Assembly (NCBI GenBank): GCA_017527625.1
Contig: JAFXPV010000005.1
Coordinates: 1 to 8,012, forward strand
Origin: Bacteroidales bacterium
GTDB lineage: Bacteria > Bacteroidota > Bacteroidia > Bacteroidales > UBA932
Direction: 5' to 3'
DNA: 8,012 nucleotides
Position 1 is the first letter of the stretch, and the number at the start of each line of letters is the position of its first letter. Shown in pieces: positions 1-8,012 of this stretch. Under the pieces are notes generated by a model. The model was not told where the DNA came from, searched no databases, and saw nothing but the letters and a program-made list of their open reading frames with translations. A program made the position numbers and the translations under genes.

Positions 1-1
1 C

Positions 2-922
2 GACATCCTCTTCGACGAGAGCCAGGTGGAGCAGGGCCGCAACTTCTGCAACAAGATATGGAACGCCTACCGCCTCGTGAAAGGCTGGCAGGTGGCCGAC
101 ACAGCTCAGAACAAGGCCTCAAAGGTGGCCGTCGACTGGTTCGGCAGCCATCTGTCAAAGACCATCGAGGCCTACGAAGACCATTTCAGCAAGTTCCGCA
201 TCTCCGATGCAGCAATGGCTGTCTACAAGCTGTTCTGGGATGATTTCTGCGCCTGGTACCTCGAACTCGTGAAGCCCGCCTTCGGGCAGCCGATCGACCG
301 TGCCACCTACGACGCTACCATCGCTTTCTTCGATTCGCTGCTCAAGCTCCTGCATCCGTTTATGCCGTTCATCACCGAAGAGTTGTGGCAGAACATCGCC
401 CAGCGCGGCGAGGGCGAGACCATAATGCTTCAGGATATGCCGAAGGCAGGCGTGAGCGACGACAAGCTCATCGCCGACTTCGACGCGGCCTGCAAGGTGG
501 TGATGGAGCTGCGCGCCCTGCGTCAGGGCAAGGGCATCTCACCCAAGGAGGCCCTCAGCCTCAAGGTGAAGGGCGACTTCAGCGAGGCTATGTATCCCGT
601 GGTGGAGAAGATGGCCAACGTGAGCTCCACAGCGACTGCAGCAAGCTTCGAGAACGAAGGCAGCGGCCAGAGCTTTATGGTCGGCACCCTCGAGTTCTTC
701 GTGCCGCTGGAAGGTATGATCGACAAGGAAGGGGAGAAGGCCAAGATCGAAGCTGAGATAGCCCGTTACGAAGGCTTCCTGAAAGGCGTGAACGCAAAGC
801 TCGGCAACGAGAAGTTCGTGGCCAACGCTCCCGCCCAGGTAGTCGAGACCGAGCGCAAGAAGCTCGCTGACGCCACCGCCAAGATAGCGGCCCTCAAAGC
901 AAGACTCAACGAATTATCATAA
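2..922 (+). CDS. valS: Valyl-tRNA synthetase, C-terminal part (5' end outside window)
   Basis: This is the last 306 residues of a class I valyl-tRNA synthetase, which charges tRNA-Val in the cytoplasm. The frame is open from base 2, so the gene is cut by the window edge; the GTG at 26 is an internal Val codon, not a start. The first visible residues ([19 protein letters not shown]) match the stretch that follows the KMSKS loop, so the catalytic domain lies upstream. The middle is the helical anticodon-binding domain, including [15 protein letters not shown]. The last 70 or so residues form the tRNA-binding coiled-coil arm typical of ValRS, with the hallmark pattern [20 protein letters not shown] followed by heptad-like Ala/Leu/Lys repeats. 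The related IleRS and LeuRS lack this arm ending, so the assignment is firm. The gene ends in TAA, 19 bases before tatA. Confidence 0.96.
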
Positions 923-941
923 ACATCTAATACTTACAGAT

Positions 942-1157
942 ATGCTTACACTGTTCTTTATCCCCCTGACCCTGGGTACCTGGGAAATAGTAGCCATCGT
1001 CCTTGTAGTCCTTCTGCTCTTCGGAGGCAAGAAGATTCCCGAGCTGATGCGCGGCCTCGGAAAAGGTGTCAAGGAATTCAAAGGCGGAATGAAAGAAGCC
1101 GAGAAAGAATTCGACGACATCAAGAAGGATGTAATGTCTGAAGATACTAAAAAATAG
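942..1157 (+). CDS. tatA: Sec-independent (Tat) translocase pore subunit TatA
   Basis: A 71-residue TatA/E-type protein, which oligomerises in the inner membrane to make the passage for folded Tat substrates. One hydrophobic N-terminal helix (about residues 2-26, ending LLLFGG) is followed by the diagnostic [16 protein letters not shown] hinge. Next comes a lysine/glutamate-rich amphipathic helix (about 35-65) that lies on the cytoplasmic membrane face. The length and the lack of a long C-terminal tail fit TatA rather than TatB. The ATG at 942 places the helix right at the N terminus, as in the family. No Shine-Dalgarno sequence precedes it, which is usual in Bacteroidota. tatC starts 6 bases after the TAG stop. 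No separate tatB is visible, so this TatA probably serves both roles, as in other TatAC systems (inferred). Confidence 0.95.
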
Positions 1158-1163
1158 CGAGTA

Positions 1164-2048
1164 ATGGCAGATGTAAAGATGTCCTTCTGGGACCATCTTG
1201 ACGAGCTGCGGAAAGTACTGTTCAGGATAGTGGGAGTGCTGCTGGTTCTGACCGTGGCGGCATTCTTCTTCAAGGAGCCGATGTTCAACGTCATCTTCGG
1301 CCCCTTGAACTCCGATTTCATCCTGTACAGGGGTTTCGACAAGCTGCTCGGCCTGGTGGGTTTGAAGGGTGTGGACAATTTCGACATCAAAGTGATGAAC
1401 ATCGAAATGTCCGCGCAGTTCTTTACACATCTGAAAGTCTCGTTCTTCGTGGCTCTGATAGTCGGAATGCCTTTCTTCTTCTACCAGCTGTGGACCTTCA
1501 TAAGGCCGGCGCTCTACCCCAAGGAGAAAAGGGCCATCAGAGGCACTTTCGGTTTCGCGGGCATCCTGTTCTATCTGGGCCTTGCCTGCGGCTATTTCCT
1601 GGTGCTGCCGCTGACGGTCAAGTTCCTGGGAACTTACCAGGTGTCGCCCGACATCCCCAACGAGATCTCCCTGACCTCGTACATCGGGATGTTCCTGGGT
1701 CTGATACTCGTGATGGGAATAGTCTTCGAGATGCCCATCCTGGCTGCGCTGCTCTCCCGCATAGGGCTCATCTCGAAGGAACTGCTCAAGAAATACAGGC
1801 GTCACGCAATCGTCATCCTGGTCATCCTTGCCGCCATCATCACACCGAGCGGCGACGCCTTCACAATGATGATAGTCGCCATCCCGCTCTACCTGCTGTA
1901 TGAATTCAGCATTATGGTCTGCCGCAGCGAGAAGGACCAGAACAAAGAGAAGGATGACGACGATTATGAGGACTACGAGGAGATGGACGAAGACGAAAGC
2001 GACGTCGACGACCATACTCTGATCGAAGCCGGGGAGGCCGGCGAATGA
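1164..2048 (+). CDS. tatC: Twin-arginine translocase receptor subunit TatC, with long acidic tail
   Basis: A 294-residue TatC, the polytopic inner-membrane protein that recognises twin-arginine signal peptides and recruits TatA. The N-terminal cytoplasmic motif FWDHLDELR (residues 8-16) is present. Six hydrophobic segments fall at about 17-37, 90-113, 128-150, 173-199, 213-227 and 232-250. Conserved acidic positions appear as E14, E121 (ALYPKEKR), E189 (FEMP) and D231 (TPSGDAF), matching by motif E15, E103, E170 and D211 of E. coli TatC. The first periplasmic loop (about 38-89) is long. Residues 255-294 form a hydrophilic tail in which 21 of 40 residues are Asp or Glu; it should face the cytoplasm. 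The core family is about 240-260 residues, so the tail accounts for the extra length. The stop overlaps the next start as ATGA. The function is firm; the role of the tail is unknown. Confidence 0.96.
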   Translation: MADVKMSFWDHLDELRKVLFRIVGVLLVLTVAAFFFKEPMFNVIFGPLNSDFILYRGFDKLLGLVGLKGVDNFDIKVMNIEMSAQFFTHLKVSFFVALIVGMPFFFYQLWTFIRPALYPKEKRAIRGTFGFAGILFYLGLACGYFLVLPLTVKFLGTYQVSPDIPNEISLTSYIGMFLGLILVMGIVFEMPILAALLSRIGLISKELLKKYRRHAIVILVILAAIITPSGDAFTMMIVAIPLYLLYEFSIMVCRSEKDQNKEKDDDDYEDYEEMDEDESDVDDHTLIEAGEAGE

Positions 2049-7340: not shown

Positions 7341-7344
7341 GGAT

Positions 7345-7968
7345 ATGGAAGAGATACTGAGATATTTCCCGTCGCTGAGCGAACGGCAGATCGAGAGGTT
7401 CACCGCGCTCAAGGCGCTCTACGACGAGTGGAACGCCCGCATAAACGTCATCTCCCGCAAGGATATGGACAACTTTTACGAGCACCACGTGCTGCACTCG
7501 CTGGCCCTGGCGTTGCCGATGAAAGGTATGGTGGTGCCCGGCGACCGCATCCTCGACCTTGGCACCGGCGGCGGCTTTCCCGGCATTCCGCTGGCCATAT
7601 TTTTCGAGCAGTGCGACTTCCTGCTCTGCGACTCCGTAGGCAAGAAGACCAAGGTGGCGTCGCAGGTCGCCGAGGCGCTCGGGCTGCAGAATGTCAGGGT
7701 GGTCAACGACCGGGCCGAGAATCTGCCGGGCAGCTTCGACTACGTAGTTTCACGCGCAGTGACTTCGCTCGACAAGATGCTGCCCTGGATCAAGGGCCGT
7801 TACGACAAAGGAGTGCTCTATCTCAAGGGCGGAGACCTGGACGAGGAGATCGACCGCTGCATTTCGCGCCGGATGTTCGATGCGCGCAAGCTATCGGTCA
7901 TAGATATCAGCGATTTCTACGGCGGAGAATGGTTCGTGGAAAAAAAGATTGTTATAATAAAAAGATAA
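7345..7968 (+). CDS. rsmG: 16S rRNA (guanine-N7) methyltransferase RsmG
   Basis: A 207-residue class I SAM-dependent methyltransferase of the RsmG (GidB) family. In E. coli it makes m7G at position 527 of 16S rRNA; its loss gives low-level streptomycin resistance. The N-terminal helical part carries the family sequence YDEWNARINVISRKD. The Rossmann core shows the SAM loop ILDLGTGGGFPG (D71, G73-G80), the ribose-binding acidic position in DSVGKKTKV (D96), RAENL (123-127) and the catalytic-side VVSRAV (134-139). Length is normal for the family. The ATG lies 4 bases after the polA stop; an AAGGA just before it is too close to the start to be a good ribosome site. In many bacteria the gene sits beside mnmG, whereas here it closes a run of mainly translation and DNA-repair genes. 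The last codons and the following bases turn abruptly AT-rich, marking the end of the gene cluster. Confidence 0.96.
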   Translation: MEEILRYFPSLSERQIERFTALKALYDEWNARINVISRKDMDNFYEHHVLHSLALALPMKGMVVPGDRILDLGTGGGFPGIPLAIFFEQCDFLLCDSVGKKTKVASQVAEALGLQNVRVVNDRAENLPGSFDYVVSRAVTSLDKMLPWIKGRYDKGVLYLKGGDLDEEIDRCISRRMFDARKLSVIDISDFYGGEWFVEKKIVIIKR

Positions 7969-7969
7969 A

Positions 7970-8001
7970 TTTGTATATTTCAAAGAGACTGTTTACTTTT
8001 G
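7970..8001 (+). promoter_or_regulatory. Bacteroidota-type sigma-70 promoter for a gene beyond the right edge
   Basis: TTTG at 7970-7973 (-33 box) is followed after exactly 20 bases by TACTTTTG at 7994-8001, which fits the Bacteroidota -7 consensus TAnnTTTG; a C follows, as often seen. Published consensus spacing is about 19-21 bases. The region is AT-rich in contrast to the coding DNA around it. Transcription would start a few bases right of 8001, near or just past the window edge, so the controlled gene is not visible. A second TAnnTTTG match (TAAATTTG, 7966-7973) has no -33 box at the right distance. Confidence 0.75.
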
Positions 8002-8012
8002 CACTCCCAAAA

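Follow-up and report, generated by a model that had tools for sequence, protein, structure and literature searches.

A Bacteroidales housekeeping locus without CATG: probable avoidance of a Type II restriction target

What could remove every copy of a four-base palindrome from a run of housekeeping genes? The question is raised by a stretch of 8,012 nucleotides from a Bacteroidales bacterium (GenBank assembly GCA_017527625.1, contig JAFXPV010000005.1, positions 1 to 8,012; here called the window), for which a preliminary description had reported that the palindrome CATG is missing and had ascribed this to a CATG-specific restriction or methylation system. As reported, a direct count found CATG 0 times in 8,012 bases on either strand. 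Dinucleotide shuffling predicted a mean of 36.3 copies (standard deviation [SD], 5.2; 200 shuffles) and a second-order Markov model predicted 34.2 (z = −8.3), and the z score of CATG was the lowest of all 256 tetranucleotides in the window. The earlier hand count of ATG words was nearly right: the forward strand holds 110 rather than about 108, preceded by A in 22 cases rather than 20, and the figures for C (0), G (51), and T (37) were correct. The GC content, put at about 60%, is 58.2%.

Synonymous codons were then shuffled within the six long open reading frames (ORFs) of the window, with the proteins and codon usage kept fixed. The 300 shuffles gave a mean of 35.3 copies of CATG (SD, 3.7) and a minimum of 25, and the Poisson probability of finding none when 35.3 are expected is about 5e−16. 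The palindrome thus lies far under both the Markov expectation and what the coding permits, which bears out the earlier statement that coding constraint does not explain the deficit. CTAG is also missing from the window, against 11.7 copies expected by the Markov model but only 2.2 under synonymous shuffling, and it is rare in all 15 relatives fetched (observed/expected [o/e] ratio, 0.00 to 0.37); its absence is therefore a background feature. TTAA is likewise absent, although the numbers are small (2.7 expected by the Markov model; 4.7, SD 1.9, under synonymous shuffling), and GATC has an o/e of 0.51 in the window and of 0.46 to 0.66 in the six close relatives.

These relatives were found via polA, and loci of 7 to 23 kb were fetched around that gene (genomes, contigs, and loci carry G, C, and L numbers, respectively). 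The nearest polA relatives found, with 86 to 89% protein identity, belong to six draft genomes labeled Bacteroidales bacterium that derive from forestomach samples of buffalo, sheep, and goats, and their DNA is 81 to 86% identical to the window. Observed versus expected CATG counts at these loci were 11/108 (L003), 14/108 (L006), 45/106 (L004), 29/41 (L001), 122/140 (L005), and 63/69 (L002), and the same genes thus span o/e values from 0.10 to 0.91. When the window is included, CATG ranges from 0.00 to 0.91 and CTAG from 0.00 to 0.24, and no palindrome besides CATG shows such wide variation with so many sites. Composition therefore does not cause the deficit: relatives with the same genes differ this much in CATG, yet all six are low in both CTAG and GATC. 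An explanation by codon or composition bias, or by chance in a small window, could appeal to a length of just 8 kb and to the further rare palindromes of the genus (CTAG and GATC). It fails on the synonymous shuffles, none of which came below 25, on the Poisson probability, and on L001, L002, and L005, which carry the same genes at a GC content of 0.55 to 0.59 and have CATG o/e values of 0.71 to 0.91. Shuffles and relatives' loci together refute it, and we give it practically no chance. In nine remoter polA relatives, the CATG o/e was 0.25 to 1.02.

The depletion is strong and patchy in the genus and is not confined to the window. In other stretches, the CATG o/e was 0.35 to 0.55 in G004, 0.83 to 0.92 in G001 and G005, 0.09 to 0.25 in G006, and 0.89, 0.84, and, in one short stretch, 0.34 in G002; in G003, it was 0.07 to 0.17 in four of five sampled contigs and 1.05 in contig C1. 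Over the 79% of G006 that was read, there were 1,389 copies of CATG versus 7,128 expected (0.19), a deficit interrupted by a few CATG-rich islands, while CTAG stood at 0.22 and the remaining 14 palindromes at 0.63 to 1.15. The comparison with relatives that the preliminary description had called for thus found a deficit that differs among close relatives and appears genome-wide in the relative that was readable at length, G006. The islands of G006 (C15 bins 1, 5001, and 15001; C11 bins 135000 to 145000; C14 bins 280001 to 290001) hold 13 to 25 CATG per 5 kb, compared with at most 6 in 260 of 321 bins, and are probably recently acquired DNA.

A survey of 26 genus genomes, 25 of which had readable samples with at least 13 CATG expected (G029 yielded none), gave o/e values from 0.03 (G018, 1/30) to 1.01 (G016, 58/58). 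The value for G003 in this survey, 0.40, reflects a defense island within its sample, and second samples gave 0.18 for G018, 0.09 for G026, and 0.14 for G033. Ten genomes are CATG poor (o/e of 0.25 or less): G006, G018, G019, G024, G026, G027, G031, G033, and G034 by the survey and G003 by its polA locus. In a polA protein tree of 23 sequences, CATG-poor and CATG-normal genomes are interleaved, with the sisters G025 and G034 at 0.54 and 0.21 and with G030 (0.79) and G021 (0.60) beside G018 and G019; this tree leaves the place of the window within its group of seven unresolved. A DNA tree of the seven joins L004 with L003 and L006 (Shimodaira-Hasegawa-like approximate likelihood ratio test, 91 to 95; bootstrap, 86 to 88) and sets L001, L002, and L005 apart (100/100).

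Alignments bear on whether selection or mutation was at work. Of the CATG words that one or another of the six relatives has at 60 aligned places, none is present in the window; counted in the same way, L003 keeps 2/60, L006 3/59, and L005 30/46. The window instead has CATA/TATG at 19, CATC/GATG at 12, CACG/CGTG at 9, AATG/CATT at 5, CAGG/CCTG at 5, and other words at 10, counts in which the direction of change is not polarized. CATG has thus been replaced through many substitution types rather than by a single mutational route, and this mixture, which is not TATG alone, indicates selection. Among words of the form xATG, the share with G is 0.57 in the window versus 0.38 to 0.41 in L001, L002, and L005, and the share with T is 0.30 versus 0.19 to 0.23. 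In 58 kb of alignment of G003 with G006, 9 CATG sites are shared and 17 and 31 are private, a shared fraction of 0.27. A simple turnover model, which ignores differences between sites and is suggestive only, predicts 0.35 under selection and 0.03 under faster loss alone; the pooled fraction for 13 other palindromes is 0.64, excluding CTAG (0.32) and TTAA (0.44), which are likewise low.

These data bear on a purely mutational decay, in which, in the absence of selection, methylation of C or a repair bias converts CATG to TATG/CATA at a higher rate than the word is restored. Of the 60 replacements in the window, CATA/TATG does form the largest single class (19), and cytosine-5 methyltransferases occur in 8 of the 26 genus genomes. 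Such decay is nonetheless improbable in our judgment: the gain in share is larger for GATG than for TATG, five kinds of replacement are frequent, the turnover of G003 and G006 is closer to the selection model, crude as that is, and a loss rate about 12-fold higher would be needed to stay under the 95% bound of 3.0/35.3. Moreover, CATG is about as frequent as expected (11/14, 12/14, and 17/16) around the cytosine-5 genes of G003 and G006, which makes these genes look recent. Neither these cytosine systems nor L016 (G003:C20) look like old residents. L016 is a contig that appears phage-like by eye and carries an N6_N4-type methyltransferase of its own; it has CATG at 22/22 (o/e, 1.02) although its bin is that of a CATG-poor host. 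Its methyltransferase may serve as counter-defense, or the contig could be misbinned.

If selection removed CATG, restriction is a candidate agent, and NlaIII is an enzyme with this specificity. The excerpted text of PMC6191088 uses NlaIII as CATG specific and describes in UpaP162 of Ureaplasma parvum a CATG-specific endonuclease together with a protecting methyltransferase read as producing N6-methyladenine; this endonuclease is stated to have no homology to those reported earlier, and UpaP162 thus shows that CATG systems extend beyond the endonucleases known before. In the excerpted text of Rusinov et al. 2015 (PMC4687349), site avoidance was found only for orthodox Type II restriction-modification (R-M) systems, in about half of 1,774 cases, and avoidance without a system is described as the trace of a lost one. 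The window resembles such Type II avoidance in that a short palindrome is strongly under-represented, patchily among relatives and also where no system was found. It departs from the cases in that excerpt in the complete absence of the palindrome and in the range of close relatives, 0.00 to 0.91, at one syntenic locus. The excerpt of PMC3849833 lists CATG as the cognate site of the Helicobacter pylori system HpyI, and that of PMC4606171 deals with CATG in Cyanobacteria. Among the titles and abstract openings listed by searches of one open library, we found no report of CATG avoidance in Bacteroidales.

The NlaIII/IceA endonuclease family is represented by the profile PF05315, which we searched in 15 genomes (with a control that gave no match anywhere), in 393 Bacteroidales genomes, in the 26 genus genomes, and in nine genomes of one family. 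Only one of the 393, G344, had a match above the cutoff; two more had weak matches below it. The G344 gene (L190) lies between genes for a 259-amino-acid N6_N4-type and a 334-amino-acid D12-type methyltransferase, and its product presumably cuts CATG, judging from family membership. We ranked the 393 genomes by the pattern RYCATGRY, which samples one flank class of CATG, with genome sizes rounded to 0.1 Mb. G344 came lowest, with 14 copies in 2.1 Mb, or 6.7 per Mb (median, 211), and was again lowest in the ratio of RYCATGRY to a reversed control pattern (0.04; median, 1.48), while G003, of the window's genus, ranked 22nd by density and 11th by control ratio. A 20-kb stretch of G344 contained 1 CATG versus 70 expected. 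In the family of G344, PF05315 was found in one of nine genomes examined, G344 itself, and four of the other eight, those counted, have 280 to 328 RYCATGRY per Mb. A system that would target CATG by its family thus resides in a host genome nearly empty of CATG. Unlike in G344, PF05315 had no match among the six long ORFs of the window and none above the cutoff in the 26 genus genomes, so that the arrangement of such a gene beside an adenine methyltransferase, present in G344, was not seen in either. In a large protein search, which carries no genomic context, 2,204 of 2,242 candidate relatives of the NlaIII-type protein scored at E 0.001 or better, and some among the matches listed are named Bacteroidaceae, Alistipes, Tidjanibacter, and Cryptobacteroides. 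A close mobile carrier was not found in the two collections searched, viral contigs giving one distant relative and plasmids one record (Priestia, 32% identity).

The preliminary description had suggested looking for NlaIII-like endonucleases and CATG methyltransferases, and this search did not turn up a cognate pair in the 26 genus genomes with PF05315 and four methyltransferase families (PF02086 and PF01555, searched in 6 and then 26 genomes; PF00145 and PF02384, in 26). These genomes are drafts of unstated completeness, in which mobile R-M genes may bin badly or from which they may drop. D12 methyltransferases were found in 5 genomes, N6_N4 in 8 (7 above the cutoff), cytosine-5 in 8, and N6_Mtase in 13 (8 above the cutoff); in the ten CATG-poor genomes, N6_N4 occurred in 4, cytosine-5 in 3, N6_Mtase above the cutoff in 3, and D12 in 2. 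A weak PF05315 match below the cutoff (18.9 bits; E = 7.8e−4) lies in G025 (L216, G025:C55:81865-82164), directly upstream of a cytosine-5 methyltransferase gene (82191-83237), and is perhaps a distantly related nuclease of another R-M system. The D12 protein of G025 is 33% identical to that of G344 and was rejected as its counterpart, G025 having a CATG o/e of 0.54; the D12 protein of G024 shows no similarity to it (E = 0.16).

We consider it likely that an orthodox Type II restriction system directed at CATG, present until recently, drove the avoidance. Ancestors of the window's lineage would have carried a Type II R-M system cutting CATG, NlaIII-like in specificity. Whenever methylation lagged or the system was lost, every chromosomal CATG would have been exposed to cutting, and mutations destroying the word would have been favored and those creating it selected against. 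The genetic code allows CATG to be removed synonymously in every reading frame, and housekeeping genes could therefore have lost all copies. We infer that the lineage of the window itself had such a system, of this class and recently active; it may have been of the NlaIII type or another CATG system, such as UpaP162. Overall, the effect is real, unusually complete, and of a known kind, and this explanation is likely right in kind.

Several observations weigh against it. CATG has an o/e of 1.25 in H. pylori in the excerpt of PMC3849833, and a CATG system in a species therefore does not always go with avoidance. The 20-kb stretch of G344 is also low in GATC (10/67) and CTAG (0/29). Next in the ranking come G129, G374, and G288 (14 to 21 RYCATGRY per Mb), which are nearly as CATG poor as G344 but lack PF05315 and are candidates for another CATG system. 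The association of carrier and depletion is good but single evidence, from one carrier. In the genus, PF05315 was above the cutoff in none of 26 genomes, the genome with the weak match is at 0.54, the four methyltransferase families are each present in 4 or fewer of the ten CATG-poor genomes, and G027, G031, and G033 are CATG poor with no match to any of them. A milder deficit (o/e of 0.70 or less) is also present in 8 of the 9 remoter polA relatives. The proposal of a CATG system thus stands in part, being supported by avoidance beyond codons, by the contrast among relatives, and by G344, while none was found in the genus. Of its two forms, restriction is favored, and methylation alone is less likely given the association of avoidance with orthodox Type II systems only (excerpt of PMC4687349) and the H. 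pylori value.

The missing system leads to two further explanations. What we see may be the fading trace of a CATG system now lost, a variant that overlaps with the Type II explanation and that we hold to be a substantial possibility, if somewhat short of an even chance. No system was found among the genus genomes, traces of lost systems are common according to the excerpt of PMC4687349, and the values of G004 (0.42) and G006 (0.19) resemble partial recovery. A recovery clock, crude and with its rate calibrated on other palindromes, fits loss in G004 at about 0.146 substitutions per site ago on a branch of 0.193 but limits relaxation of selection in the window to no more than about 0.024 of the 0.096 substitutions per site on its terminal branch; any loss of the system there would therefore be recent. 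Alternatively, the agent could be something other than an orthodox R-M system: a nuclease that has no methyltransferase partner, or an external factor encountered in the rumen. G027, G031, and G033, with none of the four methyltransferase families, would fit such an agent, as would a scan for the motif [DNS]PP[YFW] in translated ORFs over 79% of G006: it gave 22 motif rows in 21 ORFs, 13 of which were set aside by eye, and the 8 that were profile scanned comprised one PglX-like protein (PADLOC PglXI), one PrmC-like protein, one Cons_hypoth95 protein, which we take to be of the RsmD type, and five unrelated proteins, making the PglX-like protein the only DNA methyltransferase among them. Because the assemblies are metagenome drafts and G344 shows an ordinary NlaIII-type system with the same footprint in the same order, we think this unlikely. 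Still less probable is that the genus purges CATG repeatedly and independently through an undescribed agent without a conventional DNA methyltransferase, the host being protected by its near-lack of sites instead of by their methylation.

The findings provide a natural experiment on restriction avoidance, with one syntenic housekeeping locus and seven close relatives in which CATG ranges from absent to near normal. The deficit could serve as a rough clock for recent restriction activity in uncultured bacteria with incomplete genomes, and it flags rumen Bacteroidales worth sequencing for CATG methylation. That the sole NlaIII-family carrier ranked lowest of 393 genomes suggests that palindrome counts across drafts could find hosts of unknown restriction systems.

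The genes of the window, a housekeeping locus from a rumen-type Bacteroidales, lie consecutively on the forward strand; the six long ORFs were named by NCBIfam/TIGRFAM profile scans (Table 1). The partial valS matches the C-terminal part of its profile at 226.7 bits, the cutoff of 704 applying to the whole protein, and the short ORF that follows is presumably tatA-like, as named by eye from its translation.

Table 1. Features of the 8,012-nucleotide window
Feature	Coordinates	Strand	Basis
valS 3' part (valine--tRNA ligase), open at window start	2..922	+	NCBIfam NF004349, E 5.6e-67
Putative tatA-like ORF, 71 amino acids	942..1157	+	Translation (by eye) and start/stop codons
tatC	1164..2048	+	TIGR00945 above cutoff
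ABC-F family ATPase	2045..3970	+	NF000355 above cutoff
rlmB (23S rRNA methyltransferase)	3970..4707	+	TIGR00186 above cutoff
polA (DNA polymerase I)	4704..7340	+	NF004397 and TIGR00593 above cutoff
rsmG (16S rRNA methyltransferase)	7345..7968	+	TIGR00138 above cutoff
CATG-free stretch (whole window, either strand)	1..8012		Direct count, Markov model, synonymous shuffle

Other R-M and defense genes came to light in the genus. Pairs of D12 and N6_N4 methyltransferases in G026 (L102/L108, G026:C34) and G007 (L103/L107, G007:C5) were read as DpnII-like, with GATC rather than CATG as the target, and were rejected. The G026 D12 protein is Dam by NCBIfam, above the cutoff; the protein encoded between the pair, which we assume to be DpnII, had no NCBIfam match. 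GATC is low in the carriers (o/e of 0.32 and 0.41 in two samples of G026; 0.18 in G007) and equally low in G031 (0.16), which has no such match.

In G006, positions 790 to 7133 of L025 (G006:C3) contain BREX-like genes, including the PglX-like methyltransferase and a protein with a BrxC/PglY-like C-terminal part (PADLOC). This stretch is low in CATG (3/14 and 4/15) and therefore apparently long resident. BREX parts typed by PADLOC are not known to have 4-base palindromic targets. Lastly, positions 8112 to 13422 of L101 (G003:C23:14000-33999) and L041 (G006:C11:138629-139891) hold different cytosine-5 methyltransferase systems, each lying about 6 kb or less from a conserved flank that the two genomes share, which suggests a site of restriction-system swapping; in G003, two methyltransferase genes stand in tandem, accompanied by genes that by eye look Vsr-like and McrB-like.

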